Notes under the pieces: model-generated | Database searches by the model: none | The model's input: the letters and a program-made list of their open reading frames with translations, nothing else | Told to the model about the DNA's origin: nothing | Source: Neorhizobium galegae bv. orientalis str. HAMBI 540 | GTDB lineage: Bacteria; Pseudomonadota; Alphaproteobacteria; Rhizobiales; Rhizobiaceae | DNA length: 64,000 nt | Reading direction: 5' to 3' | Assembly (NCBI RefSeq): GCF_000731315.1 | Contig: NZ_HG938353.1 | Span: 124,001-188,000, forward strand | Shown here: piece after piece, positions 49,777-62,695 of the stretch | Position numbering within the stretch: position 1 is the stretch's first letter | Layout of the letters: every line of letters begins with the position of its first letter | Made by a program: the position numbers and the translations under genes

Positions 49777-50292
49777 ATGGCGGATGAAGCACAGGCGGCC
49801 GACGCTAAGAAAAAGAAGAACGGCACCATCATGGTCATTGCGGGCGTCGCGATCCTGACCGTGATCGGCGCCGGTGGCGGCTGGGTTGTCGGCGGCATGA
49901 TCGCGCCGAAGGATCCGAACGCGCAGGCACATCAGGCGGAACCTGCGGCCGGCGAACACGGCGAAGCCGGCAAGAAGGAAGAGGGCCTTCCCCATATTTC
50001 CACCGAGGCCAACGGCGTCGTTCTCCTCGAGCCGATCACCACCAATCTCGCCTATCCGTCCGAGAACTGGATCCGGCTCGAAGTCGCGCTTGCATTCAAG
50101 GGGCCGCCGGAACTGACGCTTGCCGAAAATATCCACCAGGATATTCTCGCCTATATGCGGACGGTCTCGCTACAGCAGATCGAGGGTCCGCGAGGCTTCC
50201 AGTATCTCAAGGACGACATCAAGGAACGCGTCGATCTTCGCTCGCAGGGCAAGGTCGCCAAGGTGATGTTCCGCTCCTTCGTGATCGAATAG
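49777..50292 (+). CDS. fliL: Flagellar basal-body protein FliL
   Basis: 171 residues from ATG 49777 (MADEAQAADAKKKKNG); a TTG at 49768 is possible. One N-terminal membrane helix (~17-38), then the periplasmic stomatin-like domain (LEPITTNLAYPSENWIRLEV) that surrounds the stator. It ends KVMFRSFVIE-TAG. In related genomes fliP follows directly. Here a terminator and an eight-gene antisense island intervene, and a decayed second copy of this gene's end lies in front of fliP. Confidence 0.92.
   Translation: MADEAQAADAKKKKNGTIMVIAGVAILTVIGAGGGWVVGGMIAPKDPNAQAHQAEPAAGEHGEAGKKEEGLPHISTEANGVVLLEPITTNLAYPSENWIRLEVALAFKGPPELTLAENIHQDILAYMRTVSLQQIEGPRGFQYLKDDIKERVDLRSQGKVAKVMFRSFVIE
50260..50288 (+). 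repeat. Left copy of the fliL 3'-end repeat flanking the island
   Basis: 21 of 29 positions match 58334-58362 in an ungapped alignment. The two copies share AAGGTGA at the start and the perfect 12-mer CCTTCGTGATCG (50276-50287 and 58350-58361). This copy is the functional end of fliL. Confidence 0.7.
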
Positions 50293-50320
50293 CGGTCGTC
50301 TCAACGACAAATCACAAAAA

Positions 50321-50352
50321 AAGCGGCCTGTAAGCGGCCGCTTTGTTCGTTT
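50321..50352. terminator. Terminator after fliL
   Basis: AAGCGGCC (50321-50328) pairs with GGCCGCTT (50336-50343) over a 7-base loop. An A-tract (ACAAAAAA) lies on the left and TGTTCGTTT on the right, so it can work in both directions: for fliL on the plus strand and for the sugar island on the minus strand. Confidence 0.7.
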
Positions 50353-50379
50353 GGGTCGGATCTCTGTCCGATCGTGACT

Positions 50380-50403
50380 GCTCCTTCGGTTTACCGAAGG
50401 AGC
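50380..50403. terminator. Perfect hairpin at the end of the sugar island
   Basis: GCTCCTTCGGT (50380-50390) and ACCGAAGGAGC (50393-50403) form an 11-bp perfect inverted repeat with only two bases between arms. It is 10 bp from the stop of the last island gene and followed by ATCCTTTCGTTT on the plus strand. With the fliL hairpin it makes a double terminator at this convergent junction. Confidence 0.6.
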
Positions 50404-50413
50404 ATCCTTTCGT

Positions 50414-51184
50414 TTAGCGGACCCGCTTCAGGAAGCCGTCGGGGGCGACGGTAATCAGCAGCTTGTTCTCGACCGACTTGTCGATCTCGAATTCCGGATG
50501 GGTTTTCAGGTATTCGAAGACGGCGGTTTTCGGATTGTCGCCTGGTCCCCAGGGGCGATCGCCCGCCAGTTCCTTCGGAAGGTCCTCGACGACGGTGTCG
50601 AACACGACGCAATAGCTGCCGACGCTGGTGAGCGGGGCATAGAGCTTGAGTTCCTCGAGAACGTGCTCGTGCGTGTGGTTGCTGTCGAGGCTGATCAGGA
50701 TGCGCGAGTAGCCGGCAGCGACCTTGCGGACCTGGTCCATGATCTCGGGCGCGATGCTGGAGCCCTGGATCATCTCGATCCGCGATGCCATCGGGTGGGC
50801 CTCGATCGCGTCCTTGTTGTGGGGGCGGATGTCGATGTCGATGCCGAGAACCTTGCGCTTCGGCTTGGCGGGATCGACGACTTCGCCCTTTTCCGCCGCT
50901 TCCGACAGTTCCAGCAGCGCCAGCATCGAGGCGCTGAGGATGAGGGAGCCGCCATGGGCGATGCCGGTCTCGATGATCAGGTCGGGTTTTACCGTCCAGA
51001 TCAGCTCCTGCATGGCGACCATGTCCTGCGGATACTGGATGATCGGCCGGCCGAGCCAGAAATAGTTGTAGGAATATTGCGAGGCGATCGACGTGCGCAT
51101 GAACTGCGCGGCGCTGTCGGTAAGTTCCTTGTTTCCAGGGACGGCAGCGACGCGGGCTTCAACTTCCTTGGTGAAATCACTCAT
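50414..51184 (-). CDS. CmcI-like SAM-dependent O-methyltransferase (cephalosporin hydroxylase family)
   Basis: 256 residues from ATG 51184 (MSDFTKEVEARV), with GGGGA upstream. The family name is historical; known members are sugar or rhamnosyl O-methyltransferases. Seen: FWLGRPIIQYPQDMVAMQEL, the SAM loop LIIETGIAHGGSLI (E72), the acidic GIDIDIRPHN and SLDSNHTHEHVLEEL metal-binding-like motifs, and VVFDTVVEDLP. Last gene of the island operon, overlapping the previous gene by 8 bp. Likely O-methylates the island's deoxysugar; target position unknown. Confidence 0.75.
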   Translation of the reverse strand: MSDFTKEVEARVAAVPGNKELTDSAAQFMRTSIASQYSYNYFWLGRPIIQYPQDMVAMQELIWTVKPDLIIETGIAHGGSLILSASMLALLELSEAAEKGEVVDPAKPKRKVLGIDIDIRPHNKDAIEAHPMASRIEMIQGSSIAPEIMDQVRKVAAGYSRILISLDSNHTHEHVLEELKLYAPLTSVGSYCVVFDTVVEDLPKELAGDRPWGPGDNPKTAVFEYLKTHPEFEIDKSVENKLLITVAPDGFLKRVR

Positions 51185-52238
51185 TGTCGATCCCCACATA
51201 GGTATAGGCGTTGTGAGACAGCATTCGAATTTCCTCGAGATAATTGGAGTTCATGACGTAGATGGTCGAGCCGTGGGGAAGCTTCGCCAGGGCCTGGTCC
51301 GGCGATTGCACCATCAGGCCGGTCGCCGGCAGGAATTTGCCCTGTTTGGCGGGATTGATGTCGATGACCATGTCGACCGGCTGCCCCTGACGGGATTTCA
51401 GCAGCGAGAAGGTCACCCCTTTCGACGCGCCGCCCCAGATCGCCGAACTGTCGCCCGCTGCAATTCGATCGCCCAGTGTGCGGGTAAAGTCGGCGGGAAA
51501 CGCGACGCGATCGGTTTCTTCGCGCACCGGCGGCTGCAACGAGTCCAGCTCGGCCACCACGTAAAGGTACTGCCCGCCGAAAATCCGGCCGCTTTCGATG
51601 ACATTGCCGAAGATCCGGTGGAAATCGGCCAGGCGGAAATAATTGACGTGCTCGTAGAATACGTCGAACCAGGCACGGTGTTCCATGATCCAGTCGAAGC
51701 AGGGTACTTCGATATAGATACGGCCCTTGCCGCCGTTCGCCTTGCAGAGCTCGACGAGGAAATCATACGGGCTCTGGATATGCTCCAGCACATGGCGAAG
51801 GATCAGTCCGTCGCCTTGAACGTCGACGCCGGCCTCGAAATAATGCCGTTTCACGCGCGGGTTCGTGCCCTCGTAGGTGGGGTCGAAACCGGTGAGGTCG
51901 AAGCCTTTTTCGAGCAGCATTTCGAGGAAGAGGCCCTTGCCGCAGCCAACCTCCACCAGGTTCTCGCGGCCCATCGTCCGCTCGACGATGCCGGCCACCA
52001 TTTCCAGATGCTGGTGAAAATGCCGGCTGACACCCTGTTCGTTATTGTAATTGCCGTCGTAGTCCATGAGCTTCGGGTCGAACGCATCGTTGTAGACGAG
52101 GCCCGTGTTCATGTCCTGCACCAGGCGGATGTCGCCCTTGGCGCAGTTCTTAGCTTCCGCCGCCGTGGGATAAACGCGGTTCTGGAAGGTCGGTAACTGC
52201 GGCTGTTCGTAAAGCAGCAGGGTATCTTTCGTTGTCAT
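51177..52238 (-). CDS. SAM-dependent methyltransferase, C-methyltransferase-like, with reduced N-terminus
   Basis: 353 residues. SAM motif LVEVGCGKGLFLEMLLEKGF is intact. The C-terminal third (IWGGASKGVTFSLL, INPAKQGKFLPATG, IYVMNSNYLEEI) parallels the C-terminal domain of the neighbouring NDP-hexose C-methyltransferase (AYGAAAKGNTLL, AAAKQNKFMPGS). However, the paired CxxC zinc ligands of that family are missing (a single C is seen in KNCAKGD). The active-site YHEH becomes FYEH. It may be a diverged second sugar methyltransferase. Fourth from the 5' end after the SDR, 4 bp gap. Confidence 0.65.
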   Translation of the reverse strand: MTTKDTLLLYEQPQLPTFQNRVYPTAAEAKNCAKGDIRLVQDMNTGLVYNDAFDPKLMDYDGNYNNEQGVSRHFHQHLEMVAGIVERTMGRENLVEVGCGKGLFLEMLLEKGFDLTGFDPTYEGTNPRVKRHYFEAGVDVQGDGLILRHVLEHIQSPYDFLVELCKANGGKGRIYIEVPCFDWIMEHRAWFDVFYEHVNYFRLADFHRIFGNVIESGRIFGGQYLYVVAELDSLQPPVREETDRVAFPADFTRTLGDRIAAGDSSAIWGGASKGVTFSLLKSRQGQPVDMVIDINPAKQGKFLPATGLMVQSPDQALAKLPHGSTIYVMNSNYLEEIRMLSHNAYTYVGIDNE

Positions 52239-52242
52239 GTCA

Positions 52243-53076
52243 TCACCTCGTTAATCCTACAACGCAGGGAGGATCCACCAGATTGTCGGGACGGGCGCCG
52301 AATCGCAGAAGATCGCGTCGACCATACTCGTCGGCCAATCGCTCGGCTATCTGCCGCACGGTGACCGGAATTCCGGAACAGATGTTGGCTGCTCCCGTTC
52401 TATCGCCAAGCCCGATATCAGCAATCTGCCTTCCTGCTTCGCGAACGTCCAGGAAGTCGCGGATCTGGTTGCCGCTGGTCAAATCCACCGGTTTGCCTGC
52501 GGCGAGCTGCGCGCGAAGGTAGGGAAACAGCCGTCGCTCGTCTTCACCTTCGCCGAAAAGATAAAAGAGTCGGCACCAGGCAAAGCTGATCCGGTGCAGC
52601 GGCAGCCATTGCGACAGAGCCATAAATACTGCGGCTTTCGCGCCGGCATAGGGGCTGATCGGGCGCAGCGGCGTGTCGGTGGCGAGCATGCCCACCGAGA
52701 CGTCATATTCGAAACACGTGCCCACGCCGACGAACCGTTTGACGCCGGCGAGAGCCGCGCCCTGCGCCATCCGTAACGTGCCTTCGAGGCAGACGATATT
52801 TTCCGCCGACTGCAGATATTTGCCAGGCTCCGCATACCAGGCGACATGTGCGACCGTATCGACGCCTTCGAGGGTCTTCGCCCACCACTCGACCGGCTCG
52901 CGAAACAGGTCCGGCGTCCGCACGATGCTCTCGACAGCGGAGAGATCGCCAAGCCGGCTTTCCGCTGATCCTTCGCGTAAAATCACCCGGACGCGCACAC
53001 CGGATTCGGTCAGCGCCCGCAGTACCTGCCGGCCGACAAAACCTGTTCCTCCGGTGAGCAGGACGAGTGGCGTCAT
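52243..53076 (-). CDS. NAD(P)-dependent sugar epimerase/reductase (extended SDR)
   Basis: 277 residues. Dinucleotide motif LLTGGTGFVG (G9-G15), catalytic T120 (GVGTCFEYD), Y143 and K147 (SPYAGAK). Shorter than dehydratases of this superfamily, so a 4-ketoreductase that finishes the deoxysugar is the best guess; a 4-epimerase is the alternative. Overlaps the C-methyltransferase stop by 4 bp (ATGA). Confidence 0.75.
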   Translation of the reverse strand: MTPLVLLTGGTGFVGRQVLRALTESGVRVRVILREGSAESRLGDLSAVESIVRTPDLFREPVEWWAKTLEGVDTVAHVAWYAEPGKYLQSAENIVCLEGTLRMAQGAALAGVKRFVGVGTCFEYDVSVGMLATDTPLRPISPYAGAKAAVFMALSQWLPLHRISFAWCRLFYLFGEGEDERRLFPYLRAQLAAGKPVDLTSGNQIRDFLDVREAGRQIADIGLGDRTGAANICSGIPVTVRQIAERLADEYGRRDLLRFGARPDNLVDPPCVVGLTR

Positions 53077-54296
53077 ATGACCTTCAATTCCGGCACGGCG
53101 GTTACGAACCTGGTGCCCTGATCGGCAAGCGAAGCCAGCTGCTGACGGACTTCGGTCGCGATGTTCCAGGGCAGGATCATCACATAGTCCGGCCGGCGCG
53201 CGACGATCTCGTCCGGATGCAGGATCGGAATGTGGCTGCCCGGCATGAACTTGTTCTGCTTGGCGGCTGCGGCATCGCAGACATAGGGCAGCAGGTCCGG
53301 CTTGACGCCGGCGAAGTTGAGGAGCGTGTTGCCCTTGGCCGCGGCGCCATAGGCTGCCACCGTCTTGCCCTCGCGCTTTGCGTCCAGCAGGAAGGCGAGC
53401 GCGTCGTTCTTGACCTTTTCGGCCTTGGCCTGGAAATCGGCATAGGTGGCCGAGGTCTGAAGACCACGGCGCTGCTCTTCGCCGAGAAGTGCGGCAACCG
53501 CCTCTGTCGTCTGCCGCGGATCACCCGCATGGCATCCGTAGACGCGCAGGCTGCCGCCATGGGTCGGCAATTCCTCGACGTCGAAGATACGTAAGCCCGC
53601 CGCTTCGAAGATCTTTCCGACCGTGAAGAGGGAAAGATAGGAGAAGTGCTCGTGATAGACCGTATCGAACTGATTGTACTCGATGAGCCGCATCACATGC
53701 GGAAATTCGAGCGTGACGGTGCCGCCGGCCTTCAGCACCGCCTTCAGGCCGCGCGTGAAATCGTTGATATCTGGAACATGCGCATAGACGTTGTTGCCGA
53801 GGATGAGATCGGCACCCTTGCCTTCCTCAGCCAGCATTTTGCCGAGCGCTTCGCCAAAGAATTCTCGGCGGACCGGAATGCCGAGCGCCTCGGCAGCTTC
53901 GGCGGTGCTGGCCGTCGGCTCGACGCCGAGGCAGGGTATGCCGGCCTTGACGAAGTTCTTGAGGAGATAACCGTCGTTCGAGGCGACCTCGATGACCATG
54001 CTGTCCCGGCCGAGACCGAGACGGGAGGTGATCATCTCGACATAACGGGCTGCATGGGCGAGCCAGCTCGTCGATGCGCTGGAAAAATACGCATATTCGG
54101 CACTGAAGAGCGATTCGGCCGAGGCATAGTCCTCGGTCTGGACCAGCCAGCATTCCTCGCAGACCTGTAGCCGCAAGGGAAAATAGACTTCCGGCTTTAC
54201 CAGATCTTCGGCGGTGAGATACGCGTTGGATGGCGGCGCGAAGCCGAGGTCCAGGAAATCGCAGCGAAGTGCGGTCCCGCAGTGGCGGCAGTTCAT
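53073..54296 (-). CDS. NDP-hexose C-methyltransferase (class I SAM, zinc-binding)
   Basis: 407 residues in the three-part layout of TylC3/TcaB9-like enzymes. N-terminal zinc ligands C3, C6, C46 and C49 (NCRHCG; VCEECW). SAM domain has VIEVASNDGYLLKNFV and the active-site motif VYHEHFSY. The C-terminal half has VAAYGAAAKGNTLL. It adds a methyl group to the carbon next to a keto group of an NDP-4-keto-6-deoxyhexose, usually C3. Overlaps the epimerase gene by 4 bp. It strongly implies a branched-chain sugar. Confidence 0.85.
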   Translation of the reverse strand: MNCRHCGTALRCDFLDLGFAPPSNAYLTAEDLVKPEVYFPLRLQVCEECWLVQTEDYASAESLFSAEYAYFSSASTSWLAHAARYVEMITSRLGLGRDSMVIEVASNDGYLLKNFVKAGIPCLGVEPTASTAEAAEALGIPVRREFFGEALGKMLAEEGKGADLILGNNVYAHVPDINDFTRGLKAVLKAGGTVTLEFPHVMRLIEYNQFDTVYHEHFSYLSLFTVGKIFEAAGLRIFDVEELPTHGGSLRVYGCHAGDPRQTTEAVAALLGEEQRRGLQTSATYADFQAKAEKVKNDALAFLLDAKREGKTVAAYGAAAKGNTLLNFAGVKPDLLPYVCDAAAAKQNKFMPGSHIPILHPDEIVARRPDYVMILPWNIATEVRQQLASLADQGTRFVTAVPELKVI

Positions 54297-54853
54297 GGCG
54301 TCAGTCCCGTGAATTGTGATGTCAGGAAGGAATGACCGCGATCACGATCCGACATTTCGGTGATCTCCAGCGGCCAGGCGATGGCGAGTGCGGGATCCAG
54401 CGCGTTCAGCGCACCTTCCGAACCGGCCGCGTAGGGCATCGAATGGAAATAGAGAAGCTCGCAGTCGTCGGTGAGTGCTTGGAAGCCATGCGCGAACCCT
54501 TCCGGGATCAGCAGCGAGCGGCGGTTCTCGGCGGAAAGCTCCTGGGCATGCCATCTCAGGAAGGTTGGCGAATCGCGTCTGAGATCCACTGCGACGTCGA
54601 AGACCGCGCCGCGCAGGCAATTGACCAGTTTCATCTCGGCATGGGGAGGGCGTTGGAAATGCATGCCGCGCACGGTGCCCTGGCGGGCCGTCATTGTCAG
54701 GTTGATCTGGGCGATCGGCTTTTCCCAACCCACCGGCGCCAGTTCGTCTGCGCAGAACATGCGCGACAGGAAGCCGCGCGAATCACCGAGGTTCTGGCGT
54801 TCGACGAGCTTCAGGCCGGCAAGCGGCAGATCGGTGACGGTGAAGCGGCTCAA
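54293..54853 (-). CDS. RmlC-like NDP-4-keto-6-deoxyhexose 3,5-epimerase
   Basis: 186 residues from TTG 54853, chosen because TTGA overlaps the rfbG stop (TGA) and GAGG lies ~8 nt upstream; the frame continues farther but overlaps rfbG. Cupin fold: ERQNLGDSRGFLSRMF, VRGMHFQ with catalytic H65, VFDVAVDLRRDSPTF, and LLIPEGFAHGFQAL. The C-terminal 'WnDP' motif of true RmlC is altered to ALDP. It may act as a 3- or 5-epimerase on the CDP-linked intermediate. Confidence 0.8.
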   Translation of the reverse strand: MSRFTVTDLPLAGLKLVERQNLGDSRGFLSRMFCADELAPVGWEKPIAQINLTMTARQGTVRGMHFQRPPHAEMKLVNCLRGAVFDVAVDLRRDSPTFLRWHAQELSAENRRSLLIPEGFAHGFQALTDDCELLYFHSMPYAAGSEGALNALDPALAIAWPLEITEMSDRDRGHSFLTSQFTGLTP

Positions 54854-55932
54854 GGGCGTGCCTCGTATTCGTCGATTTCGGCCTCGCAAAGGGCGCGGGC
54901 GTCGGCGCCGTCATTCTGCGCACGATACCATTTCATCGTCCGGTCGACAGCCTCCGCCAGCGACCAGCGCGGTTCGATACCCAGCATATGCCGCGCCTTG
55001 GCCGTTTCCAAGGCAAGCCAGCCCGCTTCGTGCGGTCCCTCGGTGCCGTCGCCGTATTCTACATCGCCGCGGCCGTAGGAGGCGCGGGCGATTTCGATCA
55101 CCTGGCGCACCGGTGCAGCTTCATGGCTGATCGGGCCGAAATTGAAGGCGTCGCCAATCGAGGGATCGCTCCACAGCCGTTCGGCAAGCACGAGATAGGC
55201 TGAGAGCGGTTCGAGCACGTGCTGCCAAGGGCGCTTGGCTTCCGGCCGCCGGACGCTGAGGGAATTGCCGGACTGCCAGGCGCGCACCGCATCCGGCAGC
55301 AGACGGTCGGCCGACCAGTCGCCGCCGCCGATCACGTTGCCCGCCCGGGCGCTGGCAACCGCCACGCCTTTTTCGCGCAGAAATGAATCGCGGTAGCTCG
55401 CAATGATAATCTCGGATGCGGCCTTGCTGGCGCTGTAGGGATCGTGCCCGCCGAGATGATCGGTCTCCCGGTAGGGAAAGGCGTGTTCGAGGTTGCGGTA
55501 GACCTTGTCCGTGGTGATCGCGACGACCACGCGCGCGGACGGCACCGAGCGGACCGCCTCCAGCAGGTTGGCGGTTCCGAGCACGTTGGTCGCGAACGTG
55601 CCAAGCGGATCCTGGTAGCTCGGGCGCACCAGGGCCTGAGCGCCGAGATGCATGACGATGTCGGGGGAGGCGGAGCGTACCAGTTCGGCGAGCCTGGCCG
55701 CATCGCGGATATCCTGGAAATGACTTTCCCTGAGATCGGGCCGCGCGAGCGCAAAGAGGCTGGGCTGCGTTTCGGGCAGCAGGGCAATGCCGGTGACTTC
55801 GGCGCCGAGGCGACCGAGCCAGATGGAGAGCCAGGCTCCCTTGAAGCCTGTATGCCCTGTCAAAAGGACGCGTTTACCTTCCCAGAAACCGCGGCTCGGC
55901 TGGGCTCCTCCGCTCACGGCCAGATTTTCCAT
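54850..55932 (-). CDS. rfbG: CDP-glucose 4,6-dehydratase
   Basis: 360 residues from ATG 55932 (MENLAVSGG). NAD-binding [12 protein letters not shown] (G26, G29, G32), followed by [11 protein letters not shown]. Catalytic ITTDKVYRN and [11 protein letters not shown], and [18 protein letters not shown], distinguish this family from RmlB. It converts CDP-glucose to CDP-4-keto-6-deoxyglucose. Its start lies 19 bp inside rfbF. Confidence 0.9.
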
Positions 55933-56687
55933 GGCGCTTTTCCGGAAGCCCAGAGGTCTTCGAGCAGGTTCTTTTCGCGCAGCGTGTCCATCGGCTGCCA
56001 GAAGCCTTCGTGCTCGTAGGCCATCAGTTCGCCCATCGTGGCAAGGTCCGCCATCGGCGCAGACTCCCACGGAATGTTGTCGCCCTCGATGAGGTCGATG
56101 CATTTCGGCGAAAGTACGAAGAAACCGCCATTGATCATGCCGCCATCGCCGCGCGGCTTCTCCACAAAGCCGGTAACCTGGTTGCCGGAGCGTTCGAGCG
56201 CGCCGTAACGGCCCGGCGGATGCACCGCGGTAACCGTCGCGTTCCTGCCGTGCGAACGATGGAACTTGACGAGCTCGGTTATATTCACGTCGCTCAGGCC
56301 GTCGCCATAGGTGAAGCAGAAGCTTTCCTCGTTGCGCAGGTAGTCCGAGACGCGCTTCAGGCGGCCGCCGGTCATTGTCGCTTCGCCGGTATCGATCAGC
56401 GTCACCTTCCAGGGCTCGGCGCTGCGGCGATGGACCTGCTTTTCGTTATAAGCCATGTCGAAGGTGACGTCCGACATATGCAGGAAGTAATTCGCGAAAT
56501 ACTCCTTGATGACGTAGCCCTTGTATCCGCAGCAGATGATGAACTCATTCACGCCATGGGCGGAATAGAGTTTCATGATGTGCCAGAGGATCGGCCGTCC
56601 GCCGATCTCGATCATCGGCTTCGGCTTGAGATGCGTCTCCTCGGAGATACGGGTTCCCAATCCACCGGCGAGAATTACAGCTTTCAA
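55914..56687 (-). CDS. rfbF: Glucose-1-phosphate cytidylyltransferase
   Basis: 257 residues. The nucleotidyltransferase signature [20 protein letters not shown] is unmistakable, followed by [18 protein letters not shown] and [28 protein letters not shown] carries the metal-binding D. Makes CDP-glucose from CTP and glucose-1-phosphate, the entry step of the CDP-deoxysugar route. Second gene of the island operon, 101 bp after the glycosyltransferase. Confidence 0.93.
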
Positions 56688-56788
56688 TTCCGTCTCTCCG
56701 TAACTGACGCGCTATCCATTGAAACGACGACCGTCAGCAAGCCATGCAAGGGAGGCTTTCAAGCGATCGGGCAAAACGCCTTCGTCCG

Positions 56789-58036
56789 TTAGAGCAAAAT
56801 GGTCTTGATCAGATCGTCCTGGCTGAACACGAGGTTCGGCAGATAGCCCATTTCCACGAAACGGTCGCGCTCTTCCGGCAGGTGCACGAGGACTGCCGTA
56901 TTATCAAGTTGCTGCGGCGTGGGGGCGGCCGGCTCGTCGATCATCTGCAGCCGCAAGGGGAAATCGACCCTGAAAAGCCGTTCCTTGATGGTGTCGATGT
57001 CATGAAACCCGTGGATGACGAGATTTTCGATGCCGGCGGTGACGCTCACCTGCCACACGAGGATCTGCAGCGCCGTTGCCAGCAATCCGCCATCCTTGAA
57101 GGACTGAACTTCCGGATGCTCGTCGAAGCCTCCGAAGACCATTCTCGTATAGACTTCATACGCCTTCACGTATTCGCGCATGCCGACGAGCAGTCGCATC
57201 GAGACGGCCATTCGCTGCAGCGTGAAGTTTCTGCAAAGATGCTCCTGGGTCGCGCGCTCGTCGGGCGAAGTGCCGACCTTGCCGCGTTTGGATGCGAAAT
57301 AGAGGAAATATTCCAGACCGCCGCGGTACTGGTCCCATCCGGTTGCCGCGATCTGAGCGCCTCCCTGAACGCGATCGCGTTCGACGCCGGATACGATGAC
57401 CTGGCGATAGAAGGGCGTCTTGCGGAAAGCGATGTCGCCCTGGTCCAGGAAGTGGGCGAGCATGGGGAACGGGTAGAAGCAGATATCTCTCGGAACCCAC
57501 GCGGCCCGGAAAGCGCTGCTGCGATAGATGCCGATTTCAGGGAAGATGTGGCCCCTGAACATATAGTTGAAGACTTCGGCGAAGCTTTTCTGCGGGAAAA
57601 CCTTGTCTTCGTTGACCGTGTAGAACAGTCCGCCCTCTACCTCGTTGATGCCGTCATACATCGCCCATGGTGCATGGCAGACCGTGATGTTCGGGTTTTC
57701 GTCGAGATAGGCAACGATATTGGCGACTTCCTGCGGGATCAGGCGATCGTCGTCCGCGAGATAGAGCATGTATTCGCCACGTCCCAGCCTGAGCGCGCTG
57801 TTCATGTTGGGGATCATCCCGACATTCTGCGCACCCCTGACGTAGCGGATAGGCATTCCCCGCTCGATGAATTCCTTGGCGACCGCGCCCGTATTGTCGG
57901 TGGAGGCGTTGTCGGAAATGACGATTTCATAGGGGAAATCGAAACGGAAATCGCGATGGCACCGTTCCAGGCAATCGTGCAGGTGTTTTTCACGGTTGTA
58001 GGTGGGGATGCAGATGCTGAGTTTAATGGAAGACAC
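56789..58036 (-). CDS. Family 2 glycosyltransferase
   Basis: 415 residues from GTG 58036, chosen because GAGGAAA lies ~7 nt upstream and the GT-A fold starts immediately (SIKLSICIPTYNREKHL). ISDNASTDNTG and the DxD-type LADDDRLI (D95-D97) are canonical. The C-terminal ~200 residues are helical with no recognisable motif. No membrane helix. First gene of the island operon; it could transfer the island's deoxysugar. The acceptor (flagellin, LPS or another polymer) is unknown. Confidence 0.85.
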   Translation of the reverse strand: MSSIKLSICIPTYNREKHLHDCLERCHRDFRFDFPYEIVISDNASTDNTGAVAKEFIERGMPIRYVRGAQNVGMIPNMNSALRLGRGEYMLYLADDDRLIPQEVANIVAYLDENPNITVCHAPWAMYDGINEVEGGLFYTVNEDKVFPQKSFAEVFNYMFRGHIFPEIGIYRSSAFRAAWVPRDICFYPFPMLAHFLDQGDIAFRKTPFYRQVIVSGVERDRVQGGAQIAATGWDQYRGGLEYFLYFASKRGKVGTSPDERATQEHLCRNFTLQRMAVSMRLLVGMREYVKAYEVYTRMVFGGFDEHPEVQSFKDGGLLATALQILVWQVSVTAGIENLVIHGFHDIDTIKERLFRVDFPLRLQMIDEPAAPTPQQLDNTAVLVHLPEERDRFVEMGYLPNLVFSQDDLIKTILL

Positions 58037-58303
58037 CGAATTTCCTCGATCTGATTTACTCGAACAAGCCCTTCCGGCTCGCCGCAGACGATTGACGTTC
58101 CGAAGCACCGGTGACTTGCCGAAGTGAGGAGCCCTCACATTGCTGTTGGGCCTCTTTGCGGCTTTGAGCCATTCATAAGCTCACGCTATTCAACCAGACT
58201 TGCGCCAAGCTGAATGAAGACCTCGTTCGGCAACCCAAGCCTTGTCGTTTGGTCAGGCTGGTGCGGCTTTCTGTGCACGAGCTTCAGGATGCGGGCTTGA
58301 GGT
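58037..58303. promoter_or_regulatory. Region between the island operon and fliP
   Basis: About 267 bases before the fliL remnant. It must now hold both the island promoter (minus strand) and a promoter for fliP, which lost its upstream operon partner. No clear promoter element was assigned. The leftmost boundary of the fliL-derived sequence could lie a little further left than 58304. Confidence 0.4.
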
Positions 58304-58366
58304 GTTGACCTGCATTGGTCGGGGTGACTATCGAAGGTGACGCAAAGGACCTTCGTGATCGCATGA
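58304..58366 (+). pseudogene. fliL: Decayed 3' end of a second fliL copy
   Basis: In the frame ending at TGA 58364-58366 the codons read VDLHWSG-stop-LSKVTQRTFVIA-stop. Intact FliL ends VDLRSQGKVAKVMFRSFVIE-stop: same spacing, and matches at V, D, L, G, K, V, R, F, V and I. An in-frame TGA at 58325-58327 shows decay. Its stop overlaps the fliP ATG (ATGA), the usual coupling in flagellar operons. It is best explained as the ancestral fliL end left attached to fliP when the island came in. Confidence 0.7.
58334..58362 (+). repeat. Right copy of the fliL 3'-end repeat flanking the island
   Basis: Partner of 50260-50288, in the same orientation, 8,074 bp away. The perfect core is CCTTCGTGATCG at 58350-58361. 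The island genes lie entirely between the two copies. Confidence 0.7.
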
Positions 58367-59100
58367 TTCGGCTGATCTTCCTGTTCGTCGCTCTGATGGC
58401 GGCACCCGGGCTCGCGCTCGCCCAGCAATCGCCCGCGGATCTTCTCAATCTGCCGGTCGATGGTTCCGCAGCCGCGTGGATCATCCGAACCTTTGGGCTG
58501 TTGACGATTCTTTCCGTCGCCCCCGGCATTCTGATCATGGTCACGAGCTTTCCGCGGTTCGTGATCGCCTTCTCGATCTTGCGCTCCGGCATGGGTCTGT
58601 CGACCGCGCCGTCGAACATGATATTGGTCTCGATGGCGCTGTTCATGACGTTTTATGTCATGTCGCCTACCTTCGACAGGGCCTGGAACGAGGGCGTCCA
58701 GCCGCTTCTTCAGAACAGGGTCACGGAGGCTGAGGCGGTTCAACGAATCGCGGAACCGTTCCGGGTTTTCATGTCGGCCAATACGCGCGACAAGGATTTG
58801 CAGCTTTTCGTCGAAATCGCCCGCGAACGAAACCAGTCGGTCGGGACGCCGCAGGCGATCGACTACCGCGTCCTGGTCCCCGCCTTCATGCTCTCGGAAA
58901 TCAGGCGCGGTTTCGAGATCGGCTTCCTGATCATCCTGCCGTTTCTGGTCATCGACATGATCGTCGCGGCAATCACCATGGCGATGGGCATGATGATGCT
59001 GCCGCCGACGTCGATCTCGCTGCCCTTCAAGATCCTTTTCTTTGTCCTGATCGACGGCTGGAATCTGCTGGTCGGCAGCCTGGTTCGTTCCTTCAATTGA
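58363..59100 (+). CDS. fliP: Flagellar export gate protein FliP
   Basis: 245 residues from ATG 58363 (MIRLIFLFVALMAAPGLALA, then Q), with a cleavable signal peptide as is normal for FliP. Motifs: LTILSVAPGILIMVTSFPRFVIAF, LRSGMGL, FMTFYVMSPTFDRAW, LVPAFMLSEIRRGFEIGFLI and MGMMMLPP. Forms the core of the type III export gate. The ATG overlaps the stop of a fliL remnant instead of an active gene, and no strong RBS precedes it. Confidence 0.95.
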   Translation: MIRLIFLFVALMAAPGLALAQQSPADLLNLPVDGSAAAWIIRTFGLLTILSVAPGILIMVTSFPRFVIAFSILRSGMGLSTAPSNMILVSMALFMTFYVMSPTFDRAWNEGVQPLLQNRVTEAEAVQRIAEPFRVFMSANTRDKDLQLFVEIARERNQSVGTPQAIDYRVLVPAFMLSEIRRGFEIGFLIILPFLVIDMIVAAITMAMGMMMLPPTSISLPFKILFFVLIDGWNLLVGSLVRSFN

Positions 59101-59160: not shown

Positions 59161-61101
59161 TCAGTTCTTGCGTGAGCTGAAGGGGCCTTCCCGCGGCGGG
59201 AGAGCAGGAACGCTGAAGTGGTCGGGCTTGATCTTGGCCTTGGCCTTCTCGGCCATCATCGTGTAGGCGGTTTCAAGATGCCGGCAATACCGTTCGGCGT
59301 CGAACAGCGGGTGCGTGAAGCGGTTTGCCTCGAGCCGTTTCCGGACCTCTTTGAGCTCCTCGCGGTTGTTGTAGTAGTGGACCGCGCGGCGAATGAAATC
59401 GTCCTGATCGTCGGCGACCATTTCCGGCAGGCCGAGCGCATTCAGCAGGCTTTCGCTGACCCGGGATGCAAAATTCTTGCCCTTGTGGGTCAGCATCGGA
59501 AGTCCGGCCCAGAGCTTTTCGGAGGTCGTCGTGTGGCCGTTATACGGATAGGTATCGAGACCGAGATCGGTCAGGCCGATACGGTTGATATAGGCCGCAT
59601 AATTGTTGACGCGATCGCCGAATATCAGGCGGCTTTCGGGTATGCCCGCCTCCGCGAAGGCCTTGATCAGGTTCTTTCTGGCGCCGAAACGCTCGCGGCA
59701 GATCAGGAACAGATAGCTCTCCGGCGTTTCCTTGAGGACGCGTATCCAGAGGTCGATCGTTGCAGGCGTGAATTTCCAGTGGCTGTGGAAGCACGAGAAG
59801 ATGAAGGCGTCCTGAGGCATGTCGCAGAGTGACCGATCGATCGGCTGCGGCATCGGGCGGTGGACTGCTTCGTTCGGGAAGAACGTCTCGGGCATCCAGA
59901 CAACCTTCTCGAAATAGTTCGGGAAGGAGCTTTCCGGCACCACCGTGCTGTCTGCGATGAGGTAGTCGATATCGACATTGACCACAGTGCCCGGATAGCC
60001 GAGCCAGGTCGCATGGACTGGCGCGGTCTGGCGGTTCATTACGAATACCCGGTTTTCGGCAGTATGACCCTGCAGGTCGACCAGGATGTCGATATTCTCG
60101 GCCTTGATCGCTTCGGCCGCCTCGTCATCCGTCATGCCGCGGATTCGGACGACCCTACCCCATTCCTCGCGGATGGCGTTGTTGTCGTTGCGTAGCCGCT
60201 CGGCAGGCGCGTTACAAAAGAGCGTGATGTCGAAACGGCTCTTGTCGTGCGATTCCAATATGCCGCGAAGCGCCTTCATAACGGCGTGTTCGGTCCAAAG
60301 GTCGGCGGAGAGATAGCCAACGCGCAATTTGCTGCCCCAGCGATGCGGCATGGCAAGCCTTTTCGAGGCGCTGTTCTTGGGCTTTCGTTCGCCCATTCTG
60401 GCGCCCGCAATGGCGTTCGTCTTTTCATCGTCGCACCAGCGCAGATTGAAGAGCGATACCTCGTCGGAAATCGCTTCGAATTCGCCTCTGGCGATTTCCT
60501 CGAATTGGATAGGCTCGTATTTGCGGATGATCTCGTAATCGAGGGCGTCTCTCATGGCTGAGAGATAGAAATTGCGCACGATGCGATCTTCGGGATCCTT
60601 TTCAAAGATCTCGAGAATGCACTTGTTCTCTTCGTCGCTCCGATCCTGCAGCCGGATCGAGCGGGCCGCAAGCTGGCGGTGTGTCGGCTCTTCGCTTCTT
60701 GCCAGCGTATTGCGGAAGGCTTCGGCGCCCTCCAGTTCCTGGCGCATCAGGGCGCCGGACATCAGGACGGCCATGTCGGGATCGGCGATCGCTTCCTTGA
60801 GGAAGCGCGCACCCAGACGAAGGACGTTGATGTCGTCGTTATTGGAAAAATGAAGCCGCATGGCTTCGCGCATGTATTTCATCTTGTGGGGGGATTCCAT
60901 GCCCCCGGCAAGCTGGAACGCCTGGGCGGCCTCGGTCTTCATCTTGAGCTTCAACAGAGTGGCGCCCAGGAGTGCGTAGTGCCTCGGGTCCTTGTGAACA
61001 TCCAGCAGCTTGTTCAGGATGCCCAATACATCGTGATATTCTTTTTTGTCGAAGTGATTTTGTGCTGCGACGTATTGCCGTTGTATCTTCAGGGGTTTCA
61101 A
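59161..61101 (-). CDS. SPINDLY/O-GlcNAc transferase-like glycosyltransferase (GT41 type) next to flagellins
   Basis: About 646 residues from TTG 61101 (GGAG upstream); TTG 61167 gives 668. No ATG start is available near the N-terminus. Residues ~1-220 are TPR-like helices (LGILNKLLDVHKDPRHYALLG). The C-terminal ~370 residues follow the OGT/SPY catalytic domain: RVGYLSADL, ILVDLQGHTAENR, ATWLGYPGTVVNVDIDYLIAD, CFHSHWKFTPATIDLW, LDTYPYNGHTTTSEKLWAGLPML, and ASRVSESLL. FlmG of Caulobacter has similar parts and glycosylates flagellin. Cytoplasmic. It faces away from the flagellin genes with a shared 328-bp upstream region. Flagellin is the likely acceptor; donor unknown. Confidence 0.82.
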   Translation of the reverse strand: MKPLKIQRQYVAAQNHFDKKEYHDVLGILNKLLDVHKDPRHYALLGATLLKLKMKTEAAQAFQLAGGMESPHKMKYMREAMRLHFSNNDDINVLRLGARFLKEAIADPDMAVLMSGALMRQELEGAEAFRNTLARSEEPTHRQLAARSIRLQDRSDEENKCILEIFEKDPEDRIVRNFYLSAMRDALDYEIIRKYEPIQFEEIARGEFEAISDEVSLFNLRWCDDEKTNAIAGARMGERKPKNSASKRLAMPHRWGSKLRVGYLSADLWTEHAVMKALRGILESHDKSRFDITLFCNAPAERLRNDNNAIREEWGRVVRIRGMTDDEAAEAIKAENIDILVDLQGHTAENRVFVMNRQTAPVHATWLGYPGTVVNVDIDYLIADSTVVPESSFPNYFEKVVWMPETFFPNEAVHRPMPQPIDRSLCDMPQDAFIFSCFHSHWKFTPATIDLWIRVLKETPESYLFLICRERFGARKNLIKAFAEAGIPESRLIFGDRVNNYAAYINRIGLTDLGLDTYPYNGHTTTSEKLWAGLPMLTHKGKNFASRVSESLLNALGLPEMVADDQDDFIRRAVHYYNNREELKEVRKRLEANRFTHPLFDAERYCRHLETAYTMMAEKAKAKIKPDHFSVPALPPREGPFSSRKN

Positions 61102-61429
61102 GGCTTCCCGCTCCAGTAAAGTTGTGCCGGCGTCCCGGCAAATCGGCTTCCCCGACAATGGTGGCAAGTCAAGCTTGCATGAAGCCGACCTCGCTGAAGC
61201 GGAACTTTCGTCAATCTTCCGTTAATCATATCGGTCGAACGGCTTTTAGCTCCCATCGTTGTTTAAAGAACTTAGAAAGGAAATGCTGCGAGATTTGCCT
61301 CACACGACGGGTTTGGTGTTCCTTCAGATTGAAGAGACCGAGTTGGCATGATGCCGGACCGAAGTGCCGGTAAAATATACAGTCCGGTATGTCCCCCTCC
61401 AGGTATTTCGTTCAAAGGGACAATCAACT
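61102..61429. promoter_or_regulatory. Divergent region upstream of the first flagellin gene
   Basis: 328 bases between the GT41-type gene and flagellin 1. TTCC-G-TTAATCATAT at 61217-61231 recurs upstream of flagellin 2. AAAGGGAC provides the flagellin RBS. No sigma-28-type promoter was recognised. Confidence 0.4.
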
Positions 61430-62695
61430 ATGGCTAGCATTCTCACCAACGTGTCGGCGATGGCCGCGCTCCAGACGCTGCGCGGCATCAGCAACGATAT
61501 GGAATCCACGCAGAGCCGAGTTTCCTCGGGCCTGCGTGTCGGTTCTGCTTCCGACAACGCTGCCTACTGGTCGATCGCGACCACCATGCGTTCCGACAAG
61601 GGTTCGCTCTCGACCGTTCAGGACGCCCTCGGCCTCGGCGCTGCCAAGGTCGACACTGCCTATTCCGCCATGGAATCGGCCATCGACGTCGTCACCGAAA
61701 TCAAGAACAAGCTGGTTGCAGCTTCCGAACCGGGCGTCGACAAGTCCAAGGTCCAGGAAGAAATCACCCAGCTGCAGAGCCAGCTGAAGAGCATCGCTTC
61801 CTCCGCCTCGTTCTCCGGTGAAAACTGGCTGCAGGCCGAAGTCGGCGGCACTCAGAACGCCACCACCGGCATCATCCAGGCCGGCACCGAGATCACCAAG
61901 CAGCTCGTCGGTTCGTTCGTTCGTGACAGCGAGGGCAACGTTTCGGTCAAGACCGTCAACGTCGTTCTCGACGAAACCAACGTCCTGTTCGACCTGAGCG
62001 GCGGCCGCGGCGGCCTTCTCGACCAGAACGCCCTCAACGGTTTCCGCGCCATCAGCTTCGACGACGGCACGACCAACCACAAGGAATACTTCGGCAAGAT
62101 CAACACCTCGGCGATCTACTCGACCACTGCCCAGTGGAAGGATATCGGCGGCGGCGTGTTCATGAAGGGCGACACCAACGGCGTCTACTCTTCGGGCTCC
62201 AACGGCACCTACATGATCAAGGTCGGCGGCGCTTACATCGACGCTGTCTACACCACCAAGGGCTACGACTTCTCGGCTGGTGCGACCGCAACGTCCGGTA
62301 TCAAGTACGGAGCGGACATCTCGGTTTCCGACCTCGACATCACCAAGCTCGAAGATTATCGCGACTCCAGCGGTGTCAGCTATCTCGGCCTGGGTACAAA
62401 GGCCAGTGATGAAGACCTCATGGCGGCACTGACCTCGTTCGTCGACGGTCAGCTGGAAGCGATGGGCAGTGCTGCGGCCAAGCTCGGTGCCGTATCGAAG
62501 CGCATCGATATGCAGTCGGACTTCGTCTCCAAGCTCACCGACTCGATCGACAAGGGTGTCGGCCGACTGGTGGATGCGGACATGAACGAAGAGTCGACCA
62601 AGCTCAAGGCACTGCAGACCCAGCAGCAGCTGGCGATCCAGTCGCTCTCGATTGCCAACTCCGACTCGCAGAACATCCTGTCGCTCTTCCGTTAA
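61430..62695 (+). CDS. flaA: Flagellin (first copy)
   Basis: 421 residues from ATG 61430. N-terminal D0/D1 coiled coil: SILTNVSAMAALQTLRGIS, MESTQSRVSSGLRVGSASD and NAAYWSIATTMRSDKGSLS. The C-terminal D0 helix contains LKALQTQQQLAIQSLSIANS and ends ILSLFR. The variable middle (~150-340) is rich in S, T and G, consistent with rhizobial complex-type flagellins. It is followed by a strong terminator and a nearly identical second flagellin gene. Surface-exposed S/T and the adjacent GT41-type gene suggest O-glycosylation. The name flaA is by position. Confidence 0.95.
   Translation: MASILTNVSAMAALQTLRGISNDMESTQSRVSSGLRVGSASDNAAYWSIATTMRSDKGSLSTVQDALGLGAAKVDTAYSAMESAIDVVTEIKNKLVAASEPGVDKSKVQEEITQLQSQLKSIASSASFSGENWLQAEVGGTQNATTGIIQAGTEITKQLVGSFVRDSEGNVSVKTVNVVLDETNVLFDLSGGRGGLLDQNALNGFRAISFDDGTTNHKEYFGKINTSAIYSTTAQWKDIGGGVFMKGDTNGVYSSGSNGTYMIKVGGAYIDAVYTTKGYDFSAGATATSGIKYGADISVSDLDITKLEDYRDSSGVSYLGLGTKASDEDLMAALTSFVDGQLEAMGSAAAKLGAVSKRIDMQSDFVSKLTDSIDKGVGRLVDADMNEESTKLKALQTQQQLAIQSLSIANSDSQNILSLFR
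61495..61614. repeat. 120-bp block identical in both flagellin genes (copy 1)
   Basis: Base-for-base identical to 63016-63135, including third codon positions. Encodes part of the conserved D0/D1 N-terminal helix. Offset between copies is 1,521 bp. Confidence 0.9.
61682..61840. repeat. 159-bp block identical in both flagellin genes (copy 1)
   Basis: Identical to 63203-63361. It ends where a V/I difference (GTC/ATC) starts. The same 1,521-bp offset as the first block. Confidence 0.9.

Follow-up and report, generated by a model that had tools for sequence, protein, structure and literature searches.

Flagellin glycosylation islands are known, e.g., from P. aeruginosa and P. syringae, TylC3/TcaB9-type sugar 3-C-methyltransferases have TDP-sugars of antibiotics as substrates, and duplication with subfunctionalisation is a general concept. 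Like the glycosylation islands, the flagellar cluster of Neorhizobium galegae contains sugar-nucleotide and glycosyltransferase genes of variable content; unlike them, the N. galegae module lies on the opposed strand between fliL and fliP, is split by fliP and would make a CDP-sugar with a C-methyltransferase. This also sets it apart from the TylC3/TcaB9 type, as the island genes point to a CDP-sugar. As in subfunctionalisation, two functions of one segment appear to be shared out between two copies, but the unit is a gene end of about 63 nt with a coding and a putative promoter job instead of the usual whole gene.

Sense transcription start sites within genes are known, e.g., in S. meliloti (PMC3616915), the main text of which contains neither fliP nor fliL. 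As with the internal promoters described there, the promoter-like motif reported here sits within an upstream gene, in this case in the coding part of fliL, from where it could feed the gene that follows; unlike those, as far as that source describes them, it is fixed by non-preferred codons that do not vary among 67 of 80 genomes, and it was probably split off later by duplication. The flagellins of R. leguminosarum stain as glycoproteins (PMC2936354), and FlmG of Caulobacter is a flagellin-linked glycosyltransferase with pseudaminic acid as donor (PMC7591256). By its description in the latter source, FlmG can be likened to the GT41-like protein of our locus: both are glycosyltransferases with a link to flagellin, and the TPR domain at the N-terminus of FlmG may have a counterpart in the weak TPR-like matches of our protein.

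Results

We analysed a window of 64,000 nt, in which the fliL stop (50292) and the fliP start (58363) are separated by an 8.07-kb block of sugar genes comprising eight ORFs, all on the minus strand (Table 1).

Table 1 Features of the fliL-fliP region in the window
Feature	Position	Strand	Remarks
fliL	49777..50292	+	Pfam FliL 4.8e-12; protein kept at 3' end, promoter motif gone
Terminator-like hairpin 3' of fliL	50320..50344	both	consensus scan only (6 matches in the region vs 6.8 in shuffles)
CmcI / rhamnosyl O-methyltransferase family protein	50414..51184	-	under NCBIfam cut-off; variable left part of island
SAM methyltransferase (Methyltransf_23/14)	51177..52238	-	present in 8/17 islands
NAD-dependent epimerase/reductase, candidate 4-ketoreductase	52243..53076	-	present in 11/17 islands
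Sugar C-methyltransferase (TylC3/TcaB9-like)	53073..54296	-	present in 16/17 islands
RmlC-like sugar 3,5-epimerase, start uncertain	54293..54889	-	17/17 islands; 149.8 bits, just under NCBIfam rmlC cut-off of 155.75
RfbG, CDP-glucose 4,6-dehydratase	54850..55932	-	TIGR02622 over cut-off; 17/17 islands
RfbF, glucose-1-phosphate cytidylyltransferase	55914..56687	-	TIGR02623 over cut-off; 17/17 islands
Family 2 glycosyltransferase (GT2), start uncertain	56789..58036	-	at least 59% in 17 island genomes only, of 57
Degenerate copy of relatives' conserved element ATCTTCCTGTTCACGAC, candidate activator site	58265..58281	+	
Second fliL end ('ghost')	58304..58366	+	copy of the final 63 nt of ancestral fliL, not translatable (in-frame stop 58325-58327)
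Putative -35 TTGACC of fliP promoter	58305..58310	+	
Putative -10 TATCGA of fliP promoter	58329..58334	+	spacer 18 nt
fliP	58363..59100	+	Pfam FliP
GT41/OGT-like glycosyltransferase, start uncertain	59161..61167	-	module part on far side of fliP
Flagellin, probable acceptor	61430..62695	+	

The second fliL end

An earlier note on this DNA had read the segment before fliP as a second fliL end, and the observations behind it hold: the window contains exactly two copies of the 12-mer CCTTCGTGATCG, at 50276 and 58350, both on the plus strand, and the frame ending at the TGA 58364-58366 reads VDLHWSG-stop-LSKVTQRTFVIA-stop, with the TGA overlapping the fliP ATG. The adjacency of fliL and fliP assumed there for relatives was likewise found, with an ATGA overlap scored by script in 28 of 57 genus genomes and 52 of 80 named loci; for six further named loci a gap of 7-8 nt was computed, yet CAATGATTCG is read at the junction. 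These junctions bear out an ancestral overlap at ATGA, retained at the right edge of the island.

In exact register, the segment matches fliL ends of island-free relatives in up to 46 of 60 positions, while the best other ungapped 60-mer reaches 42/60 and none reaches 46 among 1,572,734 (from the 80 named loci, read on one strand and at a distance of over 80 nt from the site). Moreover, the consensus of 27 ghosts agrees with that of 16 close island-free fliL ends in 49/60 positions; background and consensus match together rule out a chance resemblance. Nine of the 27 ghosts score only 22-35/63 against the fliL consensus in fixed register (G053 scores 43); in eight of these nine, the distance from TTGAC to the ATG is shifted by one base, and in G028 it is not. 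Compared with the window's own fliL, the ghost shows 36/60 identities, or 37/63 over the full segment, the latter tied by one minus-strand site. Local alignment of ghosts to their own fliL, free of the register, is similarly weak: no more than 18 of 200 shuffles scored equally well for 16 genomes out of 28, and 24 or more did for the other 12; the strong signal appears against relatives whose fliL retains the motif described below. For G020, the best place in this alignment was not the fliL tail. The last ~15 nt 5' of fliP are also retained in most ghosts, and the end reads GCATGA in 23/27, in the Pseudorhizobium as well as the Neorhizobium group, vs GAATGA in 27/28 overlap genomes of the genus. 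Overall, the sequence comparisons confirm that 58304-58366 derives from a fliL end and that the right edge retains the ancestral ATGA junction.

A promoter-like motif in intact fliL and its fate

The fliL coding end of 67 out of 80 overlap-type Rhizobiaceae contains TTGACC-N18-TA(T/A)C. Two valine codons form part of this motif and are GTT (67/67) and GTA (67/67) in all motif-bearing relatives, against a background of 13% and 3%, respectively. Among the 27 conserved valine columns of fliL+fliP in these relatives, one codon accounts for at least 95% in three; two of these three fall on the -35 and the -10, respectively, and use the non-preferred GTT and GTA. Over the last 20 fliL codons, the 16 close overlap genomes have about half the synonymous diversity seen further upstream (0.148 vs 0.317), with a small drop over all 67 (0.294 vs 0.340). 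Such promoter-like hexamers at fixed spacing, conserved beyond the need of the protein, are what an intragenic fliP promoter would leave; in addition, relatives conserve the element ATCTTCCTGTTCACGAC upstream of the -35, with little variation in its distance. Neither the 13 other overlap genomes, in which the first valine is A or I, nor the 10 loci examined from other families contain the motif, indicating that it is not essential for fliP everywhere. Before the other flagellar genes of the window, one-mismatch matches occur at about chance level, and the fliP site is the only one without mismatch. No earlier description of a fliP promoter inside fliL was found in the literature searched, which covered few subscription journals.

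After duplication, the two copies show complementary losses (G048, with a broken fliL and 6% contamination, was left out of class and codon counts, and G047, whose fliP start was misplaced by the script, also of last-codon and stop counts). In the resident fliL of the 27 duplicated genomes, the key valines are GTT in 0/27 and GTA in 1/27 (GTC and GTC in the window, with the stop TAG), the last 20 codons show no such halving of synonymous diversity (0.312 vs 0.352), and the stop is free (13 TAG, 8 TAA, 6 TGA), vs TGA in 28/28 overlap genomes of the genus. The ghosts carry an in-frame stop in 19/27, most of the remaining eight being shifted or diverged. Measured against the alphaproteobacterial sigma-70 type (TTGAC -35, TATA-type -10, 16-19 nt), they retain a clear -35 in 27/27, located 57-59 nt 5' of the fliP ATG, and TATCGA in 21/27, with a spacer of 18 nt in 19 and 19 nt in two; the -10 is changed in six. 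TATCGA is a weak -10, and a generic sigma-70 scan requiring a final T did not report the site. Modal identity is 80% for the -10, 67% for the spacer and 52% for the upstream stretch; the rows of this profile are script-anchored on TTGAC, and the 27/27 was for this reason counted from the sequences.

An upstream copy without GTT/GTA and a downstream copy with TTGAC plus stops correspond to a subfunctionalised duplicate segment. A functionless pseudogene decaying evenly was rejected in view of the invariant TTGAC and the graded retention of -10, spacer and upstream stretch. The description of the segment as simply decayed needs revision: TTGACC-N18-TATCGA and the translation start survive, and the motif is also present in the intact fliL of relatives; judged from these patterns, the ghost is probably the fliP promoter rather than a decay product.

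Order of events

A fliL-fliP gap of 104-161 bp without an island is present in 10 of the 57 genomes, most of them with a recognisable second fliL end. In a fliL+fliP tree without the tail, covering 43 of the 57 genus genomes and 12 of the 80 named loci, all 27 fall into one clade (94/95) with the gap-only genomes basal, and fliL alone, tail omitted, again unites island and gap-only genomes (support 0.892). An import of the resident fliL together with the island, as had been considered, finds no support in the latter tree. Other trees disagree or are less clear: the fliP-only tree has no ghost clade (0.329), the five-gene protein tree places Pseudorhizobium outside a group of seven overlap genomes (0.868), and the rpoBC tree (48 of 57 genomes; G037 without rpoB match) scatters ghost genomes among overlap genomes. 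As the island-free gaps are basal in the fliL+fliP tree, the duplication probably preceded the island.

As the source of the 10 gap-only spacers, neither a duplication extending over the 5' end of fliP nor one going further into fliL received a consistent signal. In local alignments to fliP, equally good shuffles numbered 3/300 for G002, 20/300 for G039 and 41-299 for the other eight; to fliL, they numbered 27/300 for G053, 35/300 for G002 and at least 90 for the rest. No foreign base composition of the island was seen, and the window contains no tRNA as a landing site.

The sugar island

Every island genome (17/17) possesses both the island GT2 and, 3' of fliP, the GT41-type transferase; elsewhere only remote relatives of the two occur, which in seven genomes lacking the island form a GT2+GT41 pair 4-13 kb 3' of fliP. 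The GT41 domain was recognised at 1e-63, its N-terminal TPR-like matches being weak (E 0.014 to 0.88, below Pfam cut-offs), and the gene adjoins the flagellin gene in the window. The matches of the C-methyltransferase to D-mycarose 3-C-methyltransferase and TcaB9 span almost its entire length. With genes for sugar nucleotides and for glycosyltransferases placed within its flagellar cluster, the locus has the make-up of a flagellin glycosylation island. Island and GT41-type transferase are thus probably a flagellin-glycosylation module, the glycan being deduced from its genes, with flagellin as the putative acceptor judged by genomic association only.

Discussion

We consider it likely that, as a whole, a dual-use fliL end was duplicated and split and that the spacer was later filled by a flagellin-sugar module. 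The final 63 nt of fliL would, in many Rhizobiaceae, combine the code for the FliL C-terminus with the promoter TTGACC-N18-TATCGA and the fliP start region, whereby motif and codon bias are observed and promoter activity is what we infer from them. The segment would have been duplicated in the ancestor of the Neorhizobium/Pseudorhizobium-type flagellar cluster, the upstream copy retaining the coding role and losing the promoter, the downstream copy retaining promoter and start and losing the coding role. The loss patterns of the copies are observed; a single duplication event is likely. fliP would thereby have been uncoupled from fliL, leaving a spacer in which an insertion may harm neither gene. 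Later, the minus-strand sugar module would have entered this spacer, with the GT41-type transferase beyond fliP, beside flagellin. Its product, as read from protein families, is probably a CDP-linked, C- and O-methylated deoxyhexose, made from glucose-1-P via CDP-glucose, 4,6-dehydration, 3/5-epimerisation, C-methylation, 4-keto reduction and O-methylation and transferred to flagellin by the glycosyltransferases. That the dual-use segment escaped a conflict by the 63-nt duplication, and that uncoupling opened a permissive slot which took the module, is a more specific reading that we only slightly favour.

The earlier note had proposed that the island entered at the fliL 3' end and itself duplicated or replaced it, the right copy merely decaying. 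The second fliL end and the ATGA junction at the right edge fit this proposal; the ten island-free gap genomes, basal in the fliL+fliP tree (other trees being less clear), and the loss that spares TTGAC and -10 over spacer and frame make it very unlikely. It is also improbable that the conserved bases work in RNA or translation, by pausing, leader structure or fliP-fliL coupling, instead of as a promoter. Retention of the last ~15 nt before fliP makes an additional role in starting translation likely, but two blocks that keep a nearly constant distance around a variable spacer, and are retained without translation across them, form a promoter pattern, and fliP readthrough from fliL in island genomes would have to cross 6-8 kb of mostly opposed genes.

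The conflict of the fliP-only, five-gene and rpoBC trees allows for at least two independent duplications, in the Pseudorhizobium and Neorhizobium lines, or for one that spread by transfer of the flagellar cluster. We regard this as possible, if doubtful, given the joint clade in the fliL+fliP and fliL trees and the GCATGA end common to the ghosts of both groups. Rather unlikely is a sugar made for surface polysaccharide (LPS/EPS), which would make the position of its genes among flagellar ones a coincidence. O-antigen loci indeed often contain RfbF/RfbG and GT2 families, and the 17/17 counts of RfbF, RfbG and the epimerase refer to the islands; the constant company of a GT41-type transferase directly 3' of fliP, beside flagellin in the window, and the GT2+GT41 pairs after fliP in island-free relatives speak for the flagellin module.

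Living relatives display three states, i.e., the dual-use overlap, the split without island and the split with island, which renders the general question of how a promoter buried in coding sequence is freed testable. In addition, a candidate flagellin-sugar module in nodule bacteria can now be named, and the locus cautions against dismissing the apparent remnant of a gene end next to an island, as it may be an active promoter. If the more specific reading above is true, one could observe here how a regulatory duplication prepared the site at which an island landed.

The fliL-fliP junction among relatives

The window (G000:C1:124001-188000) contains the single fliL of this two-contig 6.46 Mb genome, whose product is closest among named records to that of Neorhizobium sp. 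SHOUNA12A (98%), followed by N. galegae, N. vignae and relatives; the genome is probably that of N. galegae or a close sister. As the earlier note had claimed, eight minus-strand genes lie between fliL and fliP and the repeated 12-mer occurs exactly twice. The sequence directly before fliP aligns without gaps with a fliL end; the observation of a second fliL end at the right edge of the island, referred to here as the ghost, is confirmed.

Features at the fliL-fliP locus
Feature	Window position	Remark
fliL	49777-50292	
Ghost (second fliL end)	58304-58366	directly before fliP
fliP	58363-59100	
Conserved element ATCTTCCTGTTCACGAC, 0-3 mismatches	58265-58281	upstream of fliP -35 in Neorhizobium-type loci
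ATCTTCCTGTTCACGAC in loci L095-L098, L102, L103, L105, L129, L148		~97-99 nt upstream of fliP

Among 57 genomes of the genus, fliL and fliP were joined by an ATGA overlap in 28, separated by a spacer of 104-161 bp in 10 (gap-only) and by a block of 6.0-8.2 kb in 17 (island), the two genomes outside these classes being G047, where our script misplaced the fliP start, and G048, which has a broken fliL. In 80 named loci, 52 showed the overlap, seven the gap and 15 the block, and six had a computed gap of 7-8 nt, yet carry ATGATTCG at the junction. Given these three states in relatives, including the ATGA overlap, the proposed ancestral fliL-fliP junction is therefore real. In G048 (locus L087; excluded from the counts), a frameshift, perhaps a sequencing error, breaks fliL upstream of its last 22 codons; the assembly has 6% contamination.

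The ghost matches the window's own fliL at only 36 of 60 positions, and the 37/63 counted over 63 nt is equalled by one chance place. Against the best island-free relatives it reaches 46/60 in exact register, compared with a maximum of 42 among 1,572,734 other 60-mers, and the ghost consensus matches the relatives' fliL-end consensus at 49/60. In fixed register, nine of the 27 ghosts agree with the fliL consensus at only 22-35 of 63 positions; in eight of these, the distance from TTGAC to ATG is shifted by one base. The fliL reading frame is interrupted by an in-frame stop in 19/27 ghosts.

Gene content of the island

RfbF, RfbG, an RmlC-like epimerase and a GT2 protein were found in all 17 islands, as was a GT41-type transferase across fliP from the island, while a C-methyltransferase and a CmcI homologue occur in 16 each (two of the CmcI homologues at 42-43% and oppositely oriented), a reductase in 11 and a second methyltransferase in eight. 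The variable part of the island adjoins fliL; at L040, L041 and L047 this left end was swapped between lineages. Judged by eye and not by family search, the left end in G051 carries an apparent DegT-type aminotransferase, and G019 and G016 have an acetyltransferase-like and a hexapeptide-transferase-like protein, respectively; CmcI is inverted in G051 and G019.

Whole-genome searches across the 57 genomes covered the GT2 and GT41 proteins, the RfbF, RfbG and epimerase counts referring to the island locus. GT2 identity was at least 59% in the 17 island genomes and 33-36% in eight others; the GT41 protein reached at least 67% in these 17 and no more than 46% in the remaining genomes. In seven island-free relatives (G035, G036, G049, G033, G013, G007, G037) a remote GT2 (33-36%) and a remote GT41 (41-44%) are adjacent, ~4-13 kb past fliP, and may represent an alternative or earlier locus for flagellin glycosylation.

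D-mycarose 3-C-methyltransferase and TcaB9 both align with the C-methyltransferase along almost its entire length. For the GT41 protein, matches were obtained with structures of OGT and SPINDLY and a weak one with HMW1C; its TPR-like matches are weak and fall below the cut-off. Because of these gene families, the position of the GT41 gene beside flagellin, and the positive glycoprotein staining of R. leguminosarum flagellins described in PMC2936354, the block is probably a flagellin-sugar module; any naming of its sugar from the protein families is a guess.

Order of duplication and island

A DNA tree of fliP and fliL without its last 21 codons placed all 27 duplicated (ghost-bearing) genomes in one clade (94/95), within which Pseudorhizobium-type gap-only genomes and G026/G027 branch earliest, then G028 (island) with G039/G040 (gap-only), and then G053 (gap-only) adjoining 16 island genomes. 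This tree favours a duplication before the island, which would have been gained twice or lost secondarily in G039/G040 and G053; other trees conflict. The ghost clade was recovered from fliL by itself (0.892) and not from fliP by itself (0.329), and a five-gene protein tree places Pseudorhizobium outside a group of seven overlap genomes (0.868). The rpoBC tree (L168-L215) scatters the ghost genomes and disagrees with the fliL-fliP tree (L032-L087); therefore, either flagellar clusters or rpoBC have been transferred from lineage to lineage. A search for the left edge of the duplication, and for how it arose, found neither.

A promoter-like motif within fliL

The ghost retains TTGACC, 18 nt and TATCGA, the putative -35 and -10 of a fliP promoter, and the same words stand at the same spacing within the intact fliL of island-free relatives (GTT GAC CTG ... 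GTA TCG AAG). In an overlap-type set of 80 (29 genus genomes and 51 further named loci), the first motif place is a valine in 67, and these use GTT at the first (67/67) and GTA at the second (67/67). In the remaining fliL and fliP, GTT accounts for 13% and GTA for 3% of the valine codons. Because the genomes are related, the counts are not independent draws. One codon is used in at least 95% of genomes in 3/27 conserved valine columns of both genes, two of the three being the motif columns. The -35 is absent from the other 13 overlap genomes. Beyond the genus, in the same family, G079 has the motif and G125 lacks it, and it was not found in 10 loci of other families examined; the motif is a Rhizobiaceae feature, with exceptions.

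From its sequence the ghost resembles a promoter, and we infer this function for the motif, which a generic sigma-70 scan requiring the final T in the -10 did not report. A 17-nt element (window 58265-58281) precedes the -35 at an almost constant distance and is a candidate activator site. In Pseudorhizobium an inverted look-alike, CGATAACAGGGGATG, was noted by eye.

Our literature searches found no report of a fliP promoter within fliL. Start-site mapping in S. meliloti yielded 7,650 sense TSS within genes, fliP and fliL being absent from the main text (PMC3616915). A motility screen in A. fabrum places most motility genes in polycistronic operons (PMC9812332), and a fliP promoter is mentioned neither in its accessible text nor in that of a rhizobial motility review (PMC8429497).

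Complementary loss in the two copies

In the resident fliL of the 27 duplicated genomes, both motif codons have been lost (GTT in 0/27 at the first place, GTA in 1/27 at the second), and the stop codon is unconstrained, being TAG in 13, TAA in eight and TGA in six, compared with TGA in 28/28 overlap genomes. All 27 ghosts carry TTGAC 57-59 nt ahead of the fliP ATG (TTGACC in 25), with TATCGA 18 nt beyond the -35 in 19, 19 nt in two and an altered -10 in six; in rows anchored on TTGAC, conservation is 80% in the -10 columns, 67% in the spacer and 52% in the upstream stretch. Compared with the codons upstream, the final 20 codons of fliL show roughly half the synonymous variety in 16 close overlap genomes (0.148 vs 0.317), a near-normal level in duplicated genomes (0.312 vs 0.352) and a slight reduction across all 67 overlap genomes (0.294 vs 0.340).

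Division of a dual-use segment predicts complementary loss, and the losses in both copies fit: a fliL end serving both purposes would have been divided, the resident copy keeping the coding role and the downstream copy the promoter motif. The earlier interpretation is partly right: the ancestral junction stands, decay probably does not. Most striking is that the ghost, far from decaying, seems to be a fliL end retained for its second job.
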